Assembly: GCF_000013225.1 (NCBI RefSeq)
Contig: NC_007776.1
Coordinates: 1,703,001-1,767,000 of the forward strand
Source: Synechococcus sp. JA-2-3B'a(2-13)
Lineage (GTDB): Bacteria; Cyanobacteriota; Cyanobacteriia; Thermostichales; Thermostichaceae
Length of the DNA: 64,000 nucleotides
Direction: 5' to 3'
Below, in pieces: positions 19,668-53,286 of this stretch (position 1 is the stretch's first letter; each line of letters opens with the position of its first letter). The translations under genes were made by a program, and so were the position numbers. Below the pieces are notes generated by a model, which was not told the DNA's origin, ran no database searches, and saw only the letters and a program-made list of their open reading frames with translations.

Positions 19668-22600
19668 CTATTCCCAGCTCTGCAGTTGCCCTAGCCAAGC
19701 GGAGAGGCGGGATCCCACCTCTTCTCGACGCCTTTCAAGATTGGCTGCCGTCCAAATCAGAAGCAGGCCCAGCAGGATCCCAGTGGCCCAGAGCAGCAGC
19801 GCATCAGTTGTTACCAACAGCCATCCCTGCCGCAGGATCCCCAGCCCAAAGGCCAGCGTGCCCACGAAGAGATAGGCTCTTACCCGCAAGGCCAAGCCCA
19901 GCAGACCCAAGGCCAAACCCAACCCTACCGGCCAAAAGCCCGTCCACCGTTGCCCGTGAGTTTCCACCAGCACCACCAGCAGCCATGTGCCCAAGGAAAC
20001 CAGCCGCAGCCAATGCCGCCCCCGCCGTCCGTTGGTTTCCTGTAATCCCGGATCCACCTGGGCCACATAGAGCAGGGATCCCACCAGGGGCAGGGCATAG
20101 AACGTCAGGGAAGCCCAATCCTGATGCCAGCCGTAATTCCACAGGATCCAGTTGCTCAAGAACAGGCTGACATAGCCCAGGCGCACTTGGGATCTCCAGA
20201 TAGCCAGCAGGGCATAGTAGGTTGCCCCCAGCAGCAGATTAAGGGTGTTATTTCCTCCCGCGGTTACCAGAAAAGCGGCCAGGGGCAGCACCAGGGCTGT
20301 ATTCTGCCAAGGAGCCGCCGGCCAGCCCCACCGTCGCCAGGGCAAGCCGTGGTAAACCAGCCCCAGCCCACAGAGCAGGGATCCGGCCCATCGCGCTATG
20401 GATAGCTGCGGCAGCCCCAGGAACACACCGCCCAGCAGAACCCCAGCTCCTTGCCATGCACTGAGGTAACCCCAGACCGTTGGCACCCAATTTTGCTCTG
20501 TTGGAGATTCTAGAGTTGAGGTTCTCGCCTGTCCGGCGGCATAGGCCACCAGGCCGGATCCCGTCAGCACCCAGAGGAGCTGTCCCCAACGGCTGAGGCG
20601 AGGATCGAAAAGGGCAGACCAGAGGACAAGGCTGGCCAGAGCCCAGTTGGCCAAGGCCATCCAGCGCAACCCAGCTCTTTTAAGCTGCAGGGTCGCCGCC
20701 AGCCAAGGGGGACAAAAGCCGTAGCCCCAGGCCAAGCTCAGCCCTAACAGAGCGATCAACACCAACCCATTTGCCAGGGATCCCCCAGTTCGCTGGCTGA
20801 GGAAGTAAACCCAGCTCTCGTAGGCGGCCACAGACACGCCCCAAGCGCCCAGGAGCCCTTTCCAGTTGGCAGGACGGAGGTCTTCCCGGCCTTGCTCTTG
20901 CGCCCGTTGGACCGCCTGTCGACGCCCCAGGCCCAGCAACACGATGGAGAGACCTAAGCTGCCCAAGCCCGTTACCTCACTCCACTGGGCATGGGATCCC
21001 AGCCAGCCCAAGCCGGCATAGATCAGCGGCGCTGTCCCCCAGCAACTCAGAGCCTTGACCCGCTGCAGGAGTTGTCCCCCTGAGGACTCCGTCCCACCAG
21101 CGCGATCGGGCCGCTCAAAGAGGAGTTTCTCCGGCCCAATCCAAAAGAGGATCCCCAGGCTCAGATTGATGACGGCAAGCAGAGGGGCAACAGGACGGGA
21201 TCCCTGCACCACCCACAAGAGGCTGCTGGCCACCAACAGCTCCAAAGCCCAGATCAGCCCATAGGACAGCCTCTCCATTACAGACCATGAGATGGCCGAC
21301 GAAGCCTCCTGACCGCTGCCGCCAGTTGAGACATCCTCCGCCCTGGAAGGAGACGGGCTTTCGCTCTCCAAGCCAGCAGGATGGACACCGCCGTCGCGAT
21401 AAAAAGCGGGAGCCACTTCCACCCAAAGCCGCAAAACAATGGCCACCAGGACAGTCCCAGAGGCCAGGGTCAGAGCCACTGGGGAATCCAGGTACTTTCC
21501 ACCACCGATGCGACCTGCTTCTGGCTGCAATGTCTGCAACGTTAGGGAAAGTAAAAGTACGATCCCCAGCAGAAAGCCAAAGCCATCCAGCACCGGTCGG
21601 TAAGCTGCCCGAAGGCGGGGAGAGAGGTAGTGGAACGGAGTCCCTAGGCTGTAGCGACAGCCGCTAGTGCTCCGCACCGCTGTCGCGAACAACAGCAGCA
21701 CCCCCAAGGCCGTCAGCCATTCTGACTCCGTTAAAGCGGGGAACAGCCGATGGATTCCCACCAGACCGAACCCCCAGCCAAACGTCACTGTCAACAGCAC
21801 CTCTGCTGGAACAACTGCGTTGGCGGTGTGGAGCTCATGGTCGGCGGAGGGGAAAGAGGCCCACACCCACACCTGAGTGGCCATCAGCAGCAACCCCAAG
21901 CCCAGACCCAGAAACTCAACCCCCGGCCTTCCAAAGGTGAGTAACTGGGCCAGCAAAAGGGAGAGAACTGCCGGGAAACGCAAAGACCCGCGCTCCGGGA
22001 TCCCCTGCTGCCAGGAAAGGGATCCCAATCCCCCTTGCTCTGGGCTCTGCAGCCAGCGGGGCATGAACTCCAGGGGAGGCAGGGCCAATACCTGAGCTGC
22101 CGTCAAAACAAGAGGCACCAGCAGCCACAGCCAGCCAAAGGATTGTTCACCCGTCGCAGACAACTCGGGGAGCCGTTGCAGCAAAAACGCCAAGTAGCTG
22201 GATCCCACCAACACCGACCCTATGCCATCTGCACTTCGCTGCCACAGCCCCACGGGCAATCCCCAAAAGCGCCCTGACCCACCCAGAGCCACCCGCCCTG
22301 CCCATTCCAATAGGCCCACCAGCAGCAGAACCACTCCCCAACTGGACAGGCTAGTGCTCCGCACCGCTGGCGCGAACAAGTCGGGCAAAAGCCAGCGGAT
22401 CCCGGCCAGCAGTGCCCCCACTCCGTAGGCGTGGGTCAGGAGTACCCAAAGAAAGTTGGGAGTTTCTCCTGATCTGGACTTTTGTTGTAGCCACCAGGCC
22501 AGGATCCCGGCGCTCAAAAGCAAGTGCCAAAAGCGAATGGCCGGATAGGGAAGGCTCAAGAGCAGCAGGGATCCCCCTAGCCCCAAAACCAAGCGCTCTG

Positions 22601-24377
22601 TTGGTTCTACCAGCCTAGAAAAGCCTGTCTCACCGGCTTCTGGACCGCTCCTCTGCCAGCGGGCCGCCAACCCCAGCCACAGCACCTCGTAGGGCAGCAG
22701 CGCCAACCCCAGCAAGCCCCAAGGGGAATCAAGGGGCTGAAACCAGTTGGTTACTGTAGCTACAACCTCTTGCCGCCAGCTTGCTGGCCACACCTGCCAA
22801 AAAGCCCAGCAAGTTTCCAGGCCCAGCAAGAACAGCAACGTCAAATGCACCCTAAGGACTTCGTCCCGCTGGGGCGACTGGGTGTGTCGGCGCAAGCGCC
22901 CGATTAAGACATGGATCCCCAGCAGGCTAATCCCCAGCAACTGCCAGCCGCTGAAAGGGCTCTCCGCCAAGCCAATGGCAGCCAGCAGCCAGCCCACCAC
23001 CAACAGCACCCAGCTCCCCTCCCACCAGCGGGAGAGCGTCCCCTCCTGAGCGCCTTCTGCTACGACGTCCGGGGATCCCTGGGGCCATTCCGCTGCTAGC
23101 CAACCCAACAGGGCCACCGCCAACCCCAACTGCGGCACTTGGACATGCCCAGACAGCAGCCCCCGCAGGATCAACAGGGATCCGGCAGCCCCGATTAGCC
23201 AGAGCCTGGAGCCCCGTAATTCCCGAGACCGGCGGCTCCAGGTGTAAATCACGGTGCTGAGGATCCCCAGATACAGGATCCCCAGGACAAAAGCAGGGCG
23301 AAGCTCCTGCGGCCCCAAGCTCCAGAAAGCGTGCAAGCCAGAGAGGGCCAAAAAGTTCACCAAGGTTCCGTAAAAGGCATTGGAAAAGGCATTGGGCTCC
23401 ACACCGCTGTCGCGAAAGCCGGCACCTGAACCCAGCGAGCGCACCCGACCCTCAGCCGTCAACGGGATCCCCAGCAGCAAGCCCAGCGCCAGGATGCGGA
23501 TCCCCCAAAGGATCCCCAGCCCATCCAGGGCCCACACGTTCACCGGCACCAGCAGCAGGGCAATAGCCTCCAAGGTTTGACCGGTTAGACGCAGCCCTTC
23601 CTGCCGTTGGATCCATCCAGCACCTACCCCAAAAGCCGCCGTATAGGCCAAGAGCACCCCATACTGAGCAGTTGGAGAAAATTGCTCCCAGTGGCTGGCC
23701 GCCAGCACCCCCGAGGACACCACCACCAAAAACAGGCCCAGCAGCAACAGCCAAGTCACGCTTAGCTCGGACAGCAAGTTCCGCAGCAAAACAGCCAGTG
23801 CCGGGGGAGAGGGGGACAAGGACTCCGTCCGAGTAGCGCGATAGTGCTCCGCACCGCTGGCGCGAACAGGTTGAGGGGCAGCTTGGGGCTCTTCTCCCCC
23901 CTCGACCGCAGGTTCCTCAACCCCAGATCCGGCCAGGCGAGCATTTCTTTCTCGCACCATCCCTGGGATCCAAATCAAATCCAGGAGCTGTCCGATCCCC
24001 AGCAGCCCAAAAGTAAGCAGCCAGAGCAGCCCCGTGCCCCAGCGGCCCAGATAAAAACGGTGCAAGCCACAAATGCCAAGTAAACCTAAAAGCCACAGCA
24101 CGTAGGCCGAGCCAAGACGGGCCGGGATCTCGTCGCCAGGGGAAACTGCCCCTGGCCTTGCTTCTCTCTCCTCCGCCTCCAGCCGATACTGCTCCACCAG
24201 CAGGCGAAAGTGCTCTGGGGTCAGTAAGCCCAGCTCCAGCCAAGCTCGCAAACCTCGCAACACCTGCTGCCGGGATCCCCGAACGGTGAGCTCCAAAAGG
24301 ACTTGCTCCGAGGAGGGCGAGCGGTCAGATTGCAGCTCCTCTGCTCCTGGAGGCAAGAGGTGATCCTGGGATCCCAT
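19668..24377 (-). CDS. giant multi-pass membrane protein with N-terminal TM2 domain
   Basis: 1569 residues. A soluble helical start (about 23-70) is followed by a TM2 domain at about 88-146 (GICGLHRFYLGRWGTGLLWLL, DLIWIPGMV). Next is a polar linker, then about 1380 residues of almost continuous membrane helices, probably more than thirty. No enzyme motif or transporter signature was recognised. It resembles very large cyanobacterial membrane proteins of the DUF2157-like kind, but I cannot assign a family. It carries at least five copies of the dispersed 25-bp repeat, all in polar loops or linkers. It lies 48 bp upstream of rodA on the same strand. Confidence 0.85.
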   Translation of the reverse strand: MGSQDHLLPPGAEELQSDRSPSSEQVLLELTVRGSRQQVLRGLRAWLELGLLTPEHFRLLVEQYRLEAEEREARPGAVSPGDEIPARLGSAYVLWLLGLLGICGLHRFYLGRWGTGLLWLLTFGLLGIGQLLDLIWIPGMVRERNARLAGSGVEEPAVEGGEEPQAAPQPVRASGAEHYRATRTESLSPSPPALAVLLRNLLSELSVTWLLLLGLFLVVVSSGVLAASHWEQFSPTAQYGVLLAYTAAFGVGAGWIQRQEGLRLTGQTLEAIALLLVPVNVWALDGLGILWGIRILALGLLLGIPLTAEGRVRSLGSGAGFRDSGVEPNAFSNAFYGTLVNFLALSGLHAFWSLGPQELRPAFVLGILYLGILSTVIYTWSRRSRELRGSRLWLIGAAGSLLILRGLLSGHVQVPQLGLAVALLGWLAAEWPQGSPDVVAEGAQEGTLSRWWEGSWVLLVVGWLLAAIGLAESPFSGWQLLGISLLGIHVLIGRLRRHTQSPQRDEVLRVHLTLLFLLGLETCWAFWQVWPASWRQEVVATVTNWFQPLDSPWGLLGLALLPYEVLWLGLAARWQRSGPEAGETGFSRLVEPTERLVLGLGGSLLLLSLPYPAIRFWHLLLSAGILAWWLQQKSRSGETPNFLWVLLTHAYGVGALLAGIRWLLPDLFAPAVRSTSLSSWGVVLLLVGLLEWAGRVALGGSGRFWGLPVGLWQRSADGIGSVLVGSSYLAFLLQRLPELSATGEQSFGWLWLLVPLVLTAAQVLALPPLEFMPRWLQSPEQGGLGSLSWQQGIPERGSLRFPAVLSLLLAQLLTFGRPGVEFLGLGLGLLLMATQVWVWASFPSADHELHTANAVVPAEVLLTVTFGWGFGLVGIHRLFPALTESEWLTALGVLLLFATAVRSTSGCRYSLGTPFHYLSPRLRAAYRPVLDGFGFLLGIVLLLSLTLQTLQPEAGRIGGGKYLDSPVALTLASGTVLVAIVLRLWVEVAPAFYRDGGVHPAGLESESPSPSRAEDVSTGGSGQEASSAISWSVMERLSYGLIWALELLVASSLLWVVQGSRPVAPLLAVINLSLGILFWIGPEKLLFERPDRAGGTESSGGQLLQRVKALSCWGTAPLIYAGLGWLGSHAQWSEVTGLGSLGLSIVLLGLGRRQAVQRAQEQGREDLRPANWKGLLGAWGVSVAAYESWVYFLSQRTGGSLANGLVLIALLGLSLAWGYGFCPPWLAATLQLKRAGLRWMALANWALASLVLWSALFDPRLSRWGQLLWVLTGSGLVAYAAGQARTSTLESPTEQNWVPTVWGYLSAWQGAGVLLGGVFLGLPQLSIARWAGSLLCGLGLVYHGLPWRRWGWPAAPWQNTALVLPLAAFLVTAGGNNTLNLLLGATYYALLAIWRSQVRLGYVSLFLSNWILWNYGWHQDWASLTFYALPLVGSLLYVAQVDPGLQETNGRRGRHWLRLVSLGTWLLVVLVETHGQRWTGFWPVGLGLALGLLGLALRVRAYLFVGTLAFGLGILRQGWLLVTTDALLLWATGILLGLLLIWTAANLERRREEVGSRLSAWLGQLQSWE
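21084..21106 (-). repeat. dispersed repeat, form B (CGGAGTCC end)
   Basis: On the plus strand it reads GGACTCCGTCCCACC followed by AGCGCGAT. On the coding minus strand it gives the loop peptide DRAGGTESSGG of the 1569-residue membrane protein. Confidence 0.6.
21666..21690 (-). repeat. dispersed repeat, form A (GCGGAGCACT end)
   Basis: Full match to the form-A unit, here with GTTCGCGACAGC. The coding strand reads it as FATAVRSTS in the giant membrane protein. GCGACAGC at 21654-21661 pairs perfectly with GCTGTCGC at 21679-21686, giving an 8-bp stem with a 17-nt loop. A form-B-like GGAACGGAGTCCC in the opposite direction lies just upstream, at about 21632-21644. Confidence 0.8.
22353..22377 (-). 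repeat. dispersed repeat, form A
   Basis: Full match, with GTTCGCGCCAGC. Read as DLFAPAVRSTSL, in a loop between two membrane helices of the 1569-residue protein. Confidence 0.8.
23394..23416 (-). repeat. dispersed repeat, diverged form A
   Basis: TTTCGCGACAGC then GGTGTGGAGCCC, with three or four changes from the form-A unit. Read as GFRDSGVEPN in a loop of the membrane protein, the same frame as VRASGAEH elsewhere. Confidence 0.6.
23820..23867 (-). repeat. tandem pair of dispersed repeats, form B (23820-23842) plus form A (23843-23867)
   Basis: Two units abut head to tail in the same orientation with no spacer. The pair encodes VRASGAEHYRATRTES (residues 171-186) in the linker between the TM2 domain and the large membrane region. 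Confidence 0.8.
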
Positions 24378-35788: not shown

Positions 35789-37378
35789 GTGTTCGCGGCA
35801 GCGGTGCGGAGCATTATGAAGGACTGGCGCGCGTTAAAGGACTGGACAGGGATCCTGGGCATTGGCGTCATCGCCATCGGCCTGGTGGTGGGATCCGCCT
35901 TTACCGGTTGGACGGCTGTGCCCCTGAGCATGCTGGCAACAGGTTTGGCCCTGCTGGTGGTTTGGGGCATCACCCACCGGCAGGAGGTGGGGGTCTTCCT
36001 CGGTCTGCGTTCCACCCAGACCAACGCCAACATCCTGGTGGCGGTGGCGGCGATGGCCGTCATTCTAGTGCTGGTGAATGTGGTGGCGGTGCGCTACGAC
36101 CTGCGGCTGGATCTCACCGAGGAGGGCCTGTTTACCCTGTCGCCCCAAACCCGGCAATTGGTGCAGGGATTGGTGCAGCCGGTCAAAGTTTGGGTGGTCA
36201 CCACTGCGCCGGATCCCAACTTGCGGGAACAACTGGAGCGCTATCGCCGCCTCAACCCCAACCGCTTCCAGTTTGAGTTTGTGGATCCCAACCGGGATCC
36301 CTTGACCATTCAGCGGCTGCAGGTGACCCAGAACAACACCCTGGTGGTGGAGGCCGGAGAAAGCCGGCAACAACTGCCTCAGCCCCCTGCCCCTGATCTG
36401 GAGAGCAAACTGACCCCCGTCCTGTCCAAAGTGGTCAACCGAGGGGAGTTGCTGGCCTATTTCGTGCAAGGGCATGGGGAAGTGGGGCTGGAAGCGAGGG
36501 AAGGCGCCCCAACTCTGGCTCAGGCGGCGGCAGCCCTGGGCCAGGAAGGCTATCGGGTAGAGCCCCTCAACTTGGTGCAAGCGGAGATCCCAGAGGATGC
36601 GAATGTCCTGGTGCTGGCGGGGCCACAGCGGGCTTTGTTCCCCGGCGAGGTGGAGAAACTGCAGGATTATCTGGCGAAAGGCGGACGGCTGCTGTTGTTG
36701 ATTGGGCCACGGGTGGATGCCGGCCTGGATCCCTTGCTGGAAGAGTGGGGCGTGGTCTTGGGGGATGACATCCTCATTGAGGTGAGCAGCGTCAGCCAAC
36801 TGTTGGGGACAGGGCCGGCGGTTGCCCTGGTTACTACCTACGGGGATCACCCCATCACCGCCCCCTTGGCGGCCCAGCGGCTAATGACCCTGTTCCCCCT
36901 GGCCCGCTCTGTGGAAACCGAAGCCCGCGAAGGGATCCAAGCCACGCCCTTGCTGCGCACCGGCCCGCAAAGCTGGGGGGAGACCAGTCCTGAGCTGGAA
37001 CGTGGCCCCTTGCAATTCGATCCGGATCAGGACAAGCCCGGCCCCCTTACCCTGGGCGTTGCTTTAACCCGCCGTCTGGACACCGACCCAGAACAGGGCT
37101 CGGGATCCCGGCAGGAGGCCCGCCTGGTGGTGATCGGCAATGTCAACTTTGCCCTCAACGGCAACTTGCGGCAGCAGGGCAACCGGGATCTCTTCTTGAA
37201 CACCCTCAACTGGCTGACTGAGCAAACGGAGCAGATCTCCATCCGCCCCAAATCCCTCACGGATCGCCGTCTCACCCTGACCGGTCAAAACTTCCGCTGG
37301 CTGGTGCTGGGATCGACGGTCCTTTTGCCCTTGGCGGCCCTGGGTTCCGGAGCTGCCCTGTGGTGGCAAAGACGGTAG
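35789..37378 (+). CDS. Gld-like ABC auxiliary protein (ABC_transp_aux, GldG-like)
   Basis: 529 residues from GTG 35789, with GGAGG six bases upstream; ATG 35816 is the alternative. Two N-terminal membrane helices (DWTGILGIGVIAIGLVVGSA, AVPLSMLATGLALLVVWGI) and a third (NILVAVAAMAVILVLVNVVA) are followed by a large extracytoplasmic GldG domain (RLDLTEEGLFTLSPQTRQLV, KVWVVTTAPDPNLREQLERY, VEKLQDYLAKGGRLLLLIGP). A C-terminal helix ends in WWQRR. The first nine codons are a dispersed-repeat copy (FAAAVRSIM). Forms the exporter with the two upstream genes. Confidence 0.88.
   Translation: MFAAAVRSIMKDWRALKDWTGILGIGVIAIGLVVGSAFTGWTAVPLSMLATGLALLVVWGITHRQEVGVFLGLRSTQTNANILVAVAAMAVILVLVNVVAVRYDLRLDLTEEGLFTLSPQTRQLVQGLVQPVKVWVVTTAPDPNLREQLERYRRLNPNRFQFEFVDPNRDPLTIQRLQVTQNNTLVVEAGESRQQLPQPPAPDLESKLTPVLSKVVNRGELLAYFVQGHGEVGLEAREGAPTLAQAAAALGQEGYRVEPLNLVQAEIPEDANVLVLAGPQRALFPGEVEKLQDYLAKGGRLLLLIGPRVDAGLDPLLEEWGVVLGDDILIEVSSVSQLLGTGPAVALVTTYGDHPITAPLAAQRLMTLFPLARSVETEAREGIQATPLLRTGPQSWGETSPELERGPLQFDPDQDKPGPLTLGVALTRRLDTDPEQGSGSRQEARLVVIGNVNFALNGNLRQQGNRDLFLNTLNWLTEQTEQISIRPKSLTDRRLTLTGQNFRWLVLGSTVLLPLAALGSGAALWWQRR
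35791..35815 (+). repeat. dispersed repeat, form A, at a gene start
   Basis: GTTCGCGGCAGC plus GGTGCGGAGCATT. It overlaps the GTG start of the GldG-like gene and ends at the base before the alternative ATG 35816. Its GGAG lies four bases before that ATG. Confidence 0.8.
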
Positions 37379-37396: not shown

Positions 37397-38881
37397 ATGT
37401 TCAAGCGAACCACCTGGATTCTCCTGGGTTTGGCGGTGGCCTGTTTGCTGGGCTACTTCCTCTTGGACAACATCCAGCAACTGCGTCAGGAGCAACAGGC
37501 GGAGCGAGCGCGGCTGTTCCATTTTGCCACCGATACCATTGCCCGCATTGAAATCCGCCAACAGAAAGAGGGGGAACCCGTTCGCGGCAGCGGTGCGGAG
37601 CACTTGGAAATCCTTTTGGAGCGCAATCCAGAAGAAGAGGGATCCCGCTGGCGGATTGTCAGTCCCATTCAGTCAGCGGCGCTGGACTTCCCCATTGAGC
37701 AGTTGCTCAACACCTTCTCCCGCCTCACTCCCCAAATCACCCTAGAGGGGGCCACCGACCTAGCCGCTTTTGGCCTGGATCAGCCGCGACACCAAATTGC
37801 CCTTTTCCCCAAAGAAGGGGATCCCTACCGCCTAGCCATCGGCAACGACAACTTCGACGGCTCTGGCTTCTACGCCCAGCCCGAAGGGGGACAGGTGGTG
37901 CTTCTAAGCAGTGCCCAGAAGGGATCCCTGTTGCCCTCTCTCTTGGCTTTGCGGGACAAGACTTTGCTTCAGTTTGATACAGCCGAGGTGAAAGCCCTGC
38001 AAGTGCAGTTGGCAGAGGCGGAGCCGGAAGTTGTTCGCCTGCAGCGGCAAGACGTTCGCGCCAGCGGTGCGGAGCACTTTACTTGGCAGATTGTCCAGCC
38101 CCGCGAGCTGCCTGCCGATGAGATCAACGTCAACCGCTTGCTCAATACTCTGGCCCGCCTGCAGGCCGTGGAGTTCCCCGCCGAGACCCAGACGGATCTA
38201 GCCCCCTATGGCTTGGAGCAGCCTTCCGCCCGGCTGACGGTAGAGCTGGAGGGCGGCAAAACCCTGAAGGTCGCTTTGGGATCGGAGAAAGATGGCCAGG
38301 TGTACGTCATCACCTCTGAGCACCCGGCAGTGGCCACCCTGCTCACCAGCACCGCCGATATTCTCCGCTCCGACTTGGAAGAGCTGCGGGATCACCGCAT
38401 TGCCCGCCTCAACGCCAACCAAGTGGGCCAAGTCACCTTAGAATCCCAAGGGGAAAAGGTCACCCTCACCCCTCGGCCTTCAGAGAAGGGATCCTTGGAG
38501 CTGCGCTGGGAAAACCCGGAGCGACCGGGCCAGCCTGTGGATCTCGGCTCTCTGTTCTCCAGCCTAAATGCTGCCCGCGCCAAGGAGTTTGTGGAACAGG
38601 CCGACGCGGAAGCCCAAAGGGTGTTGTCTGAGCCCGACCTACGGCTGACCTTTGAGCCCAAACCCGACGCCGAGCAGGATCCCTTGGCCCTGAGCTTGGC
38701 CGCCTCTGGCTTGCGGGCCTATGTGCAAAGCAGCCGCCAGCCGGACATTGCCGTGATCGAGCTGAGCACCTTCAACAGCCTGGAAACCGAAGTGAATCGC
38801 CTCTTGGAAGGCCAGCCGGAGAGCAAGGACTCCGCCCCACTCACGCAACCGCCTTCCACCCCCTCGCCCCCGAGTTCCTAG
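37397..38881 (+). CDS. DUF4340 protein, membrane-anchored, two modules
   Basis: 494 residues. One N-terminal anchor helix (TTWILLGLAVACLLGYFLL), then two similar modules. Module 1: IARIEIRQQK, then WRIVSPIQSAALDFPIEQLLNTFSRL, then DLAAFGLDQP. Module 2: LQVQLAEAEP, then WQIVQPRELPADEINVNRLLNTLARL, then DLAPYGLEQP. A C-terminal third region is less regular and ends in Pro/Ser. DUF4340 proteins regularly follow GldA/F/G-like genes, so it is probably the extracytoplasmic partner of this exporter. Three dispersed-repeat copies lie inside. It stops 4 bp before the stop of uspA, which converges on it. Confidence 0.87.
   Translation: MFKRTTWILLGLAVACLLGYFLLDNIQQLRQEQQAERARLFHFATDTIARIEIRQQKEGEPVRGSGAEHLEILLERNPEEEGSRWRIVSPIQSAALDFPIEQLLNTFSRLTPQITLEGATDLAAFGLDQPRHQIALFPKEGDPYRLAIGNDNFDGSGFYAQPEGGQVVLLSSAQKGSLLPSLLALRDKTLLQFDTAEVKALQVQLAEAEPEVVRLQRQDVRASGAEHFTWQIVQPRELPADEINVNRLLNTLARLQAVEFPAETQTDLAPYGLEQPSARLTVELEGGKTLKVALGSEKDGQVYVITSEHPAVATLLTSTADILRSDLEELRDHRIARLNANQVGQVTLESQGEKVTLTPRPSEKGSLELRWENPERPGQPVDLGSLFSSLNAARAKEFVEQADAEAQRVLSEPDLRLTFEPKPDAEQDPLALSLAASGLRAYVQSSRQPDIAVIELSTFNSLETEVNRLLEGQPESKDSAPLTQPPSTPSPPSS
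37580..37604 (+). repeat. dispersed repeat, form A
   Basis: GTTCGCGGCAGC plus GGTGCGGAGCACT, read as VRGSGAEH in module 1 of the DUF4340 protein, between the first and second strands. Confidence 0.85.
38054..38078 (+). repeat. dispersed repeat, form A
   Basis: GTTCGCGCCAGC plus GGTGCGGAGCACT, read as VRASGAEH in module 2 of the DUF4340 protein, just before the strand WQIVQP. Confidence 0.85.
38827..38849 (-). repeat. dispersed repeat, diverged form B
   Basis: Plus strand GGACTCCGCCCCACT followed by CACGCAAC. It encodes KDSAPLTQ in the polar tail of the DUF4340 protein. Similarity is weaker than for the other copies. Confidence 0.45.
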
Positions 38882-45924: not shown

Positions 45925-45985
45925 GGCTACAGCCGGCTTCCTGGAGAGTGAGGGCACATCTGGTGGACAAGCTCCAGTCTTATTG

Positions 45986-46009
45986 GGACTCCGCCCCCCT
46001 GACGCGACC
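45986..46009 (-). repeat. dispersed repeat, diverged form B, intergenic
   Basis: GGACTCCGCCCCCC followed by TGACGCGACC on the plus strand, upstream of dcd. It faces the form-A copy at 46041-46064 in inverted orientation. Confidence 0.55.
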
Positions 46010-46040: not shown

Positions 46041-46064
46041 GTTTGCGCTAGCGGTGCGGAGCAA
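46041..46064 (+). repeat. dispersed repeat, form A, at a gene end
   Basis: GTTTGCGCTAGC plus GGTGCGGAGCAAC. Read from the minus strand it gives VAPHR and then a TAG stop, so it supplies the end of the CobO-like protein. Confidence 0.75.
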
Positions 46065-46755
46065 CATGGGCTGCTGTAGGCATAGCACCTGTGCCGCTGA
46101 CTTGAGGGGGATCCAGAGAACAGGCAACATTCCCATCGGCAGTGCGGAGCCCTGGGCCTGGGATGCCACGTAGGCGCAGCTGCGTGATCAAGTCGGCCCG
46201 CTCCAGAAACGAATCTGGCATCTCCGGCCCGGTGATCACCATGTCCATGGAGATGGGGCGCTGGTCGATTAAGCTCAGCACTTCCGCTTCTGGGATCAGG
46301 CCCAACTTCACAGCCAAGCTCAGCTCATCCAACACCACCAAGTCATAGCGGCCACTCCTGACAGCCTCCTGGGTAAATTGCCACAGCTCATCCAATGCCA
46401 CCCGCTCCTCAGGCTCTAGGTGAGGTGTATCGATGCACCGGTGCAGGCGACAGCGAACCCACTCCAAGGATCTGCCCAGGGAGAGACGATTTTCGGGCCC
46501 CTGATTGATCCCACCCTTGAGAAATTGCACGATCAGCACCCGCGTTCCCTGGCCTGCCAAGCGCATCGCCTGAGCCATGACGGGCGTAAACATGCCCCGG
46601 CTGGGGTGGGTGTAAAGCTGCAGGGATCCCTGGGGAACCAACTGGGCGGAGAGGGATCCATTCTGCTGAAGGAAAAGCTCGCCGGCAGCAGGGCTGGCTT
46701 GAGCCGCAGGCTGTTTGGCGCGGGCTACAGGAGCGGCATCCTTGGAGGAAGGCAT
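46048..46755 (-). CDS. CobO/BtuR-like P-loop fold protein with degenerate P-loop
   Basis: 235 residues from ATG 46755; GTG 46782 would add nine. The core matches corrinoid adenosyltransferase-type proteins: AMRLAGQGTRVLIVQFLKGGINQGP, ALDELWQFTQEAVRSGRYDLVVLDELSLAVKLGLI, DMVITGPEMPDSFLERADLITQ. Where CobO has the GKGKTT P-loop, this protein has THPSRGMFTPV, with no Lys-Thr pair. Cobalamin adenosylation therefore cannot be assumed. About 40 residues after LITQLRLRG look foreign and contain repeat-derived sequence (GLRTADG, then VAPHR at the end). Confidence 0.8.
   Translation of the reverse strand: MPSSKDAAPVARAKQPAAQASPAAGELFLQQNGSLSAQLVPQGSLQLYTHPSRGMFTPVMAQAMRLAGQGTRVLIVQFLKGGINQGPENRLSLGRSLEWVRCRLHRCIDTPHLEPEERVALDELWQFTQEAVRSGRYDLVVLDELSLAVKLGLIPEAEVLSLIDQRPISMDMVITGPEMPDSFLERADLITQLRLRGIPGPGLRTADGNVACSLDPPQVSGTGAMPTAAHVAPHR
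46139..46152 (+). repeat. partial dispersed repeat
   Basis: GCAGTGCGGAGCCC matches the inner part of form A with one or two changes. It lies inside the C-terminal extension of the CobO-like gene. Confidence 0.4.
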
Positions 46756-52422: not shown

Positions 52423-53286
52423 CTAGCCGCAAGATCGGGGACTCGGCGGCAGAGGGACTCGCAGCTCTACAACTGTGCCACTGCCAAAGCGGCGATTACG
52501 CCAAGCAATGCTTGCCCCGATCAACTCGGCTCGGTAGCGCATGTTGAGCAACCCGTGTCCATGGCCAGACGGCTGGGCGGGATCCACCCCACTCTTGGAC
52601 GCCGGCATACCGCAGACATCGTCGATGATCTTCAGCTCCAAGTGGGTGTAGGGAGCCTGAGGGTTGATAGAGGAACCGGCGTCCTGTTGAACCTTGGGCT
52701 GAATGATGAGATCGATGCGCCGTGCCCCCGCGTGTTTGACAATCAGAAAGCTGGCTTCCAGAGGTGTCCGGCTCAGCAGAGCCAAAGCCCCCAGCCGCTC
52801 CTCCCCCCGGTTAATCGGGTAGGCAACAAAGCCTCGCAAGCCATTGGCCTTCACCCACTCCGGGGCGGGCATCCAGGCTTCTTGGGCGGGATTGTTGCTC
52901 AAAAGCGGCAGCCCCTCCTGGGCCACCCGTCCCAAAGGGCTGTCGTCAGGGTAGATCCGCTGAATTTGGTCGTGAGCAGGACTGAGCAGGCCGGCATGGG
53001 CCACCGACTGAAAACATCCTTCCTGCGGGTCGAAAAACCAAAGGCGAGCTGAGGCTGCACCCAGACGATCCACCATCTGCCGTACCAAGGTCTGGGCCAG
53101 CTTGAGCACACACTGCTCCAGCTCCCCCATCTCTACAGAGTCCGAAGAGGATGGGGAAGATAACTGAGAAGAGAGCAGCACCAGTTCTTGGACAATTTGG
53201 TTTGCAGCCTGTAGCTGGCGTGACAGCATGGGATCCCGATTGCGGCAGCGGTGCGGAGCACTTTCAACAGAGGCAACCGAAGGCAT
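52423..53286 (-). CDS. GAF-domain protein with truncated histidine-kinase ATPase end
   Basis: 287 residues. GAF domain at about 45-185: LAQTLVRQMVDRLGAASARLWFF, SPLGRVAQEGLPLLSNN, GFVAYPINRGEERLGALALLS. After a short stretch of strand-like sequence comes DVCGMPAS and then GHGHGLLNMRYRAELIGASI and GSGTVVELRVPLP, which is the end of a NarL-type HATPase. The dimerisation/His domain and the N box are missing. ATG 53286 includes a form-A repeat in codons 8-15; ATG 53229 is the alternative. Follows gltX by 22 bp on the same strand. Confidence 0.83.
   Translation of the reverse strand: MPSVASVESAPHRCRNRDPMLSRQLQAANQIVQELVLLSSQLSSPSSSDSVEMGELEQCVLKLAQTLVRQMVDRLGAASARLWFFDPQEGCFQSVAHAGLLSPAHDQIQRIYPDDSPLGRVAQEGLPLLSNNPAQEAWMPAPEWVKANGLRGFVAYPINRGEERLGALALLSRTPLEASFLIVKHAGARRIDLIIQPKVQQDAGSSINPQAPYTHLELKIIDDVCGMPASKSGVDPAQPSGHGHGLLNMRYRAELIGASIAWRNRRFGSGTVVELRVPLPPSPRSCG
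53239..53262 (+). repeat. dispersed repeat, form A
   Basis: ATTGCGGCAGC plus GGTGCGGAGCACT. On the coding minus strand it reads SAPHRCRN near the N-terminus of the GAF protein, a third reading of the repeat. Confidence 0.75.

Follow-up and report, generated by a model that had tools for sequence, protein, structure and literature searches.

The locus analysed here raises the question of why a protein built from two related modules carries almost the same octapeptide once in each of them, as VRGSGAEH and as VRASGAEH. The protein is encoded in the window, by which we mean the whole stretch of 64,000 nucleotides that was analysed, and its gene (37397..38881, + strand) specifies a two-module DUF4340 protein of 494 aa (Pfam PF14238, E 1.7e-46) with an N-terminal helix predicted in AlphaFold models. 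A preliminary description, made from the sequence letters, had located the repeat at matching sites of both modules, where it might have been copied together with the module, inserted twice into the same loop or passed on by sequence exchange. Both peptides are real. VRGSGAEH (residues 62-69) is coded at 37580-37603 and VRASGAEH (residues 220-227) at 38054-38077, and the 26 nucleotides under both of them, GTTCGCG(G/C)CAGCGGTGCGGAGCACTT, are identical in all but a single position (25/26). The flanks of the two repeats differ, as had been described, and the relationship of the two modules is borne out by hhalign (probability 97.3, E 2e-11). A repeat finder places the two gene copies and three further same-strand copies in one family, with inverted partners at 21-24 kb. 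The two peptides are translations of copies of a 24-nt dispersed element, present hundreds of times in genomes of hot-spring cyanobacteria, and are not a protein feature.

The two insertion sites in the DUF4340 protein

Analysis of the two sites reveals that they do not correspond to each other in the fold. The position earlier assigned to both peptides, just before WRIVSP and WQIVQP, is correct for VRASGAEH, which directly precedes FTWQIVQP, but not for VRGSGAEH, which precedes LEILLER and is separated from WRIVSP (residues 85-90) by 15 residues (70-84) that include one whole predicted strand. A module-module profile alignment built from four insert-free orthologues pairs EGEP|EEILLER at site 1 with EAEP|EVVRLER. 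At site 2, LERQEN|TWQIV falls at LERTPEAEEGS|RWRII, and WRII pairs with WQIV. This pairing places site 1 in the first turn (β1-β2) and site 2 in the second turn (β2-β3). The AlphaFold model of the insert-free G003 protein (mean pLDDT 67.0, moderate) has strands at 48-55, 62-68 and 78-82 and at 191-198, 205-211 and 214-219, and the model of the window's protein (mean pLDDT 58.9, low) has them at 48-56, 69-76 and 85-89 and at 198-205, 212-222 and 225-234. In both models, with and without inserts, site 1 is flanked by the first two strands of module 1, and site 2 by the second and third strands of module 2. The loop assignment is based mainly on the gaps in the orthologues and on the profile alignment, the weak models being a second line only. 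Structure prediction and orthologue alignment, the checks suggested in the preliminary description, thus place the peptides in non-equivalent parts of the fold, the outcome named there as contradicting a matching placement, and the idea of a common loop is not supported.

Orthologues of the DUF4340 gene are present in all six genomes of the genus, namely the genome of the window (G000), its nearest relative (G004) and G003, G005, G006 and G007; their sites were viewed at the DNA level in all but G003. Both modules are present in all six orthologues, of which four have neither repeat and one (G004) has copy 2 only. Copy 1 (37582..37605, + strand; TCGCGGCAGCGGTGCGGAGCACTT), which together with the preceding GT codes for VRGSGAEH in the β1-β2 turn of module 1, is absent from all five other orthologues, and its empty site in G004 reads accgga|agaaat. 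Copy 2 (38056..38079, + strand; TCGCGCCAGCGGTGCGGAGCACTT), which codes for VRASGAEH in the β2-β3 turn of module 2, is found in one of the five (G004) and is absent from the other four. Because copy 2 is shared with G004 and copy 1 occurs in G000 alone, copy 2 was gained before the split of these two genomes and copy 1 after it.

If the repeat had been duplicated along with a DUF4340 module, or had passed between the modules by sequence exchange, the identical peptide frame in both modules and the match of 25 of 26 nucleotides would be readily explained. However, the module duplication is common to all six orthologues, four of which lack both repeats and one of which has copy 2 only, and therefore neither copy arrived with it. 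Moreover, the two sites are non-homologous by profile alignment, and sequence exchange is superfluous since the 24-nt unit has hundreds of other copies in the genome. We therefore regard copying with the module, or exchange between modules, as ruled out by the orthologues and the profile alignment, with a negligible chance of being correct. The other option of the preliminary description, two events, is in agreement with the orthologues. Very probably, the two peptides arose independently when a recently mobile 24-nt dispersed element inserted twice, into different turns and on separate occasions. In view of the different times and the different loops, the match of the peptides at the two modules is an accident of two insertions.

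A third, decayed copy (38825..38848, − strand; TTGCGTGAGTGGGGCGGAGTCCTT), which is missing from the preliminary description, lies in the C-terminal extension of the DUF4340 gene and retains 16 of the 18 fixed positions and 3 of the 4 stem-2 pairs. Among the six orthologues, the C-terminal extension around it is present in G000 and G004 only.

Sequence, structure and gene context of the 24-nt element

The unit of the element is TCGCG-NN-AGCG-NNNN-G(G/T)A-NNNN followed by two bases, giving a length of 24 nt. Its 14-nt core AGCGGTGCGGAGCA is present in 58 exact copies in the 3.05-Mb genome, and its reversed control has none. With variable positions and one mismatch allowed, we find 397 copies in G000, 350 in G004, 147 in G007, 113 in G003, 64 in G005 and 39 in G006, while reversed-pattern controls give 0 to 2 matches per genome (1 in G000 and 0 in G004).

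The predicted fold of the element consists of CGC-GNNA-GCG (a 3-bp stem 1 with a GNNA loop) and then NNNN-GNA-NNNN (a 4-bp stem 2 with a G(G/T)A loop). GNA and GNNA loops are unusually stable in DNA. A search in which both stems are free and only the loop bases are fixed returns 63 matches for G000 (621 kb searched) and 66 for G004 (593 kb searched), and the same pattern has no match in reversed or in shuffled sequence. Stem 1 of these 129 matches is CGC/GCG in 120, CCC/GGG in 8 and GGC/GCC in 1, the last of which may be due to chance, and stem 2 is represented by eight sequences in G000 and nine in G004. When distinct units are picked by hairpin 1 and loop 2, 38 of 62 are fully paired in stem 2, compared with a mean of 7.5 and a maximum of 14 in 1000 shuffles. 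When stem 2 is fixed as GGAC/GTCC, just 9 of 25 distinct units are fully paired in stem 1. The hairpin constraint is strong for stem 2, where variation is compensatory; stem 1 has one compensated variant, which is found in one subfamily only. Single-strand DNA folding gives both hairpins in all four subfamilies. Folding as RNA gives both hairpins in two of the four, a slightly shifted structure in the TTGC type and another fold in the GTGC type. Fold energies are unremarkable in comparison with shuffles (z −0.6 to −2.6).

Further copies are scattered over the window. The neighbouring gene of 529 aa (ABC_transp_aux, Pfam PF09822; gene at 35789) has a copy at its N-terminus (35793..35816, + strand), which is an exact 24-nt insertion relative to G004 at gtgt|tgaa. 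The gene for a 1569-aa TM2-domain membrane protein (19668..24377, − strand) contains seven copies in all three frames, each of them on the − strand. Two have a GTGC stem (21665..21688 and 22352..22375, the latter common to G004), one a GGAC stem (21082..21105) and one a GGAC stem with an altered loop base (22854..22877). The remaining ones are a decayed copy (23392..23415), a decayed copy with a GGAC stem (23818..23841) and, abutting the latter, a copy absent from G004 (23842..23865). A decayed copy at 45984..46007 (− strand) lies outside ORFs of at least 150 aa, another decayed copy at 46043..46066 (+ strand) is located at the edge of a CobA/BtuR-like ORF, and the copy at 53240..53263 (+ strand) is situated within a GAF/HATPase ORF, antisense to it.

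Over the five blocks compared in G000 and G004, 146 of 257 copies lie inside ORFs of at least 150 aa and 111 outside. Since such ORFs make up 81-87% of the sequence, the copies are enriched outside genes, though they are common inside. Copies in ORFs are sense in 93 cases and antisense in 53, in counts where orthologous copies enter from both genomes and clustered copies enter repeatedly, and stop codons may be the source of this sense bias. The three sense frames are used 55, 28 and 10 times, and the rarity of one frame may be explained by a TAG stop in it when loop 1 ends in TA. A general openness of the element in all six frames was considered and rejected, as loop-1 variants ending in TA give TAG in one frame.

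The preference of sense copies in ORFs for one frame (55, 28, 10) could be taken as a sign that the peptide is under selection as a functional motif. However, all three sense frames, antisense sites and non-ORF sites (111/257) are used, and the occurrence of the seven copies of the 1569-aa gene in all three frames makes the peptide unlikely as the unit of selection. We consider a functional peptide extremely improbable and, as the copies use every frame and either strand and also lie in non-coding DNA, ruled out. The usual gain of 24 nt amounts to 8 codons and therefore leaves the reading frame open if the element frame is stop-free. Persistence of the element in proteins would reflect that surface turns tolerate eight additional residues, and not an activity of the peptide. 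At four of the 18 mapped +24 sites (see below) no open frame through the site reaches 120 codons, and thus the 24-nt length is not a matter of frame selection only. By adding 8-codon peptides to genes (seven copies in one gene and three in the DUF4340 gene), the element can supply proteins with new loops, and it cautions against taking such repeats for protein motifs.

Insertion sites and candidate routes of movement

Insertion sites were compared between G000 and G004 over five blocks, in the first of which long matches are mostly 89-95% identical. Some insertion events were scored from both genomes and the site counts are not independent, and with this reservation the 87 mapped element sites divide into 27 with a net difference of 0, 24 with ±24, 10 with ±48 and 26 with other lengths, the last group including shared copies with small nearby indels and badly aligned places. 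In other words, among the 60 element sites whose length has changed, the difference is 24 or 48 nt at 34. A net +24 is seen at 21 sites; three of them were left out because their 68 flanking bases contain over 14 mismatches, leaving 18. At these 18 sites, position −1 is changed in 9, against 7.4% per site farther out. Position −3 is changed in 5, +6 in 4, and −2, +1 and +3 in 3 each; since +6, +1 and +3 are also above background in this small set, individual changes at the junction may be ordinary mutations. At the nine changed −1 positions the filled base is T in all nine, while the empty base is A in eight and C in one.

Target bases were counted at 15 empty sites, without two tandem expansions and the odd site 1865631. 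Of these, 13 carry A at −1, 11 carry G at −2 and 11 carry C/T at −3; the combination GA is found in 9 and C/T-G-A in 5. The target preference is loose, i.e. 3' of A and mostly GA. The 171 high-score filled sites of both genomes carry C/T at −3 in 165 cases and G at −2 in 111, and at −1 they have 88 T, 36 G and 34 A. No consistent target-site duplication is present at the 18 sites or in the mini-transposon described next.

This mini-transposon of about 282 nt (L055:597-878 and similar copies in G000 and G003) has many near-identical copies, which fall into a class without and a class with the 24-nt element (about 306 nt). In 2 of 11 distinct alignments exactly 24 nt are extra and the rest is near-identical, a CCA repeat leaving a 3-nt ambiguity of the position. 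A 48-nt dimer is present at ggtgctga|tgacca (610445), and nested copies lie in the loop of other copies at 1134631 and at G004:C82 43150. In the blocks studied, 13 of the 23 same-direction pairs at most 30 nt apart abut exactly, and pairs with a gap of 0 are tandem in 13 cases, head-to-head in 7 and tail-to-tail in 2. A target ending in CGA would be expected to favour head-to-head pairs because the complement of the element's 5' end is CGCGA. Arrays in which three to four units follow one another in tandem, spaced by exactly 24 nt, are also seen, at G004:C12:148185-148280 and G000:C1:370950-371022. At G000:C1:1865631, compared with G004:C10, the allele that is 24 nt shorter still ends in GTCCTT, the element end; this site does not fit the insertion rule and may represent a deletion or a homology-guided event.

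How the element moves can be framed as a choice between several routes. Our own proposal, which we put forward tentatively as a plausible possibility, is that the element moves as folded single-stranded DNA, in the form of two adjacent mini-hairpins. A putative enzyme, encoded elsewhere and acting in trans, would copy or join the element 3' of the target A, after which the 5' junction, with its short mismatch, would be resolved to the target A or the donor T. A Y1/RAYT mover would be one form of this route. The few units fully paired in stem 1 when stem 2 is fixed, the unremarkable fold energies, the 26 sites of other length and the looseness of the target preference all count against it.

The precise element-sense 3' end together with a variable 5' side resembles target-primed reverse transcription, and a short transcript that is reverse-transcribed at a nicked site would be an alternative. 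Such an RNA-intermediate route has reportedly been proposed for the small dispersed repeats of Nostoc, and the larger number of sense than antisense copies in ORFs of at least 150 aa (93 vs 53) points in the same direction. However, the counts behind this bias include orthologous and clustered copies repeatedly, and the bias may reflect stop codons. Moreover, the DUF4340 gene carries the GTGC subfamily, for which RNA folding gives a different structure, and Rfam has no family matching any element copy within the window. We consider an RNA intermediate possible, but on the unlikely side.

A further explanation dispenses with a dedicated enzyme and invokes template switching, in which the replication fork would pass from one hairpin-forming repeat to another, aided by short 5' homology. 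It would fit the concentration of flank changes on the 5' side, at −1 and −3, with a net length that is still +24, and also the 13 of 23 close same-direction pairs that abut exactly and the existence of nested copies. But the 3' junction has no general homology to the target, and this route would not lead one to expect the A that 13 of the 15 empty sites have at −1; we hold template switching to be rather unlikely.

Movement in trans by a relative of Y1 transposases, as in a REP/RAYT-like pair, is suggested by the neighbourhood of some Y1 genes. In G000 a single Y1 gene was found unbroken, and immediately downstream of it lie two inverted copies that abut each other; a copy lies within 75 nt of the domain end at 3 of 12 scanned Y1 loci, and head-to-head abutting pairs are recurrent (7, with 2 tail-to-tail and 13 tandem). 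Nevertheless, matches to Y1 (HUH) transposases do not track copy number, with 2 in G000, which has 397 copies, and 19 in G003, which has 113. The Y1 genes also resemble ordinary tnpA of IS200/IS605, whose non-coding tail could just carry passengers, and more than half of the copies (146/257) lie in ORFs, unlike the extragenic REPs. We consider a REP/RAYT-like pair an improbable form of the proposed single-stranded DNA route, although the inverted copies beside the unbroken G000 gene are a lead.

IS200/IS605-type Y1 genes with copies just downstream are located at L117, L120 and L125, the copies forming apparently inverted pairs when judged by eye (L120 and L125); the arrangement at these three loci recalls REPIN pairs beside RAYTs. 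At G007:C36 (L129), two abutting GGAC-type copies lie about 200 nt from a different type of Y1 gene.

The family offers recent, datable insertions, one unit length inside and outside genes, and a target base preference. The 5' junction signature can separate the candidate mechanisms, and the movement of such elements, which is said to have been raised as an old question for elements of about 24 nt in work on Nostoc, becomes testable.

Distribution and relation to known repeats

The AGCGG-type pattern without mismatch is found in 3 of 386 sampled cyanobacterial genomes, these being G000, G004 and, with one copy only, a genome from a different family. The exact core also occurs in a second genus within the family of G000, with 5 copies in G002; G001 has none. 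Two wider plans were searched in the 386 genomes without demanding stem-2 pairing. The plan with a four-base first loop occurs in 94 genomes, with 191 matches in G000, 135 in G004 and up to 34 in family f7; in most of the remaining genomes it has no match or is outnumbered by the reversed control. With a first loop of three bases, the plan occurs in 89 genomes, with up to 140 matches in f7, 15 in one f16 genome, 3 in G000, 12 in G004 and few elsewhere. In 50-kb stretches of three named Nostocaceae plasmids (150 kb), 7 stem-paired AGCG-NNNN-GNA-NNNN units are present against 0 for the reversed control, and 5 of the 7 have CGC-GNA-GCG as first hairpin. The strict four-base plan is found 1, 0 and 0 times in these three plasmids, which is not above shuffles.

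Taken together with the junctions, these counts allow a bolder reading, which we regard as doubtful. The 24-nt element could be among the smallest mobile DNA elements, a two-hairpin single-stranded DNA that a putative enzyme joins 3' of A (mostly GA), often swapping in the donor T, and the abundance of the plans in its own family and in f7 (presumably Nostocaceae), with rarity or control-level counts in most other families sampled, would reflect horizontal spread of the mover.

The closest known kind, likened by description, is the small dispersed repeats of Nostoc. SDR4-SDR6 of Nostoc punctiforme, reportedly described by Elhai et al. in 2008, are said to be dispersed hairpin repeats of 21-27 nt with compensatory changes, nested, present in mini-transposons and recently mobile. 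The 24-nt unit with its 397 copies falls in this length range. It has compensatory changes in stem 2 and, in stem 1, the one variant CCC/GGG; it has been recently mobile, as filled and empty sites in relatives indicate, and it is likewise nested and inside mini-transposons. The units of the Nostocaceae plasmids have a three-base first loop, whereas the 24-nt element has mostly a four-base one (GNNA), and we liken these units to SDRs in general and to no named SDR. No published description of the 24-nt family was found among titles and the beginnings of abstracts. Within that scope, the family appears as a previously undescribed variant that is nearest to the Nostoc small dispersed repeats by description.

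Other known repeats share single features with the element. Rickettsia palindromic elements insert in protein genes and leave the frame open, as the 24-nt element does, but they are longer than 100 nt. MITEs, such as ISSoc-derived mini-transposons, are non-autonomous dispersed repeats that are also present in these genomes. The 24-nt unit differs from them in having no terminal inverted repeats (by eye) and no consistent target duplication; it is a passenger in the 282-nt repeat, which may itself be an ISSoc-derived mini-transposon. With REPs and REPINs moved by RAYTs, as outlined in excerpts of PMC3116915 and PMC3733652, the element shares shortness, palindromic structure, many copies and, sometimes, inverted pairs. 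Unlike them, it is not confined to intergenic DNA (146/257 copies in ORFs), its copy number has no link to Y1 genes, and its TCGCG...CTT unit has no terminal GTAG/CGTC tag, GTAG being found only inside some second hairpins.

One of the Nostoc repeats permits a comparison of targets. An excerpt of PMC4390886 places the insertion of SDR5 precisely behind the third base of HIP1, GCGATCGC. This insertion point, CG|A, is near the A preference of the 24-nt element. However, the targets of the latter are not HIP1, as the window is without GCGATCGC and the empty sites are non-HIP1. The same excerpt names GGGATCCC as the commonest octamer in Synechococcus JA-3-3Ab and JA-2-3B. The window has 79 copies of GGGATCCC, reported as the HIP1 derivative of thermophilic Synechococcus, against 0 of GCGATCGC.
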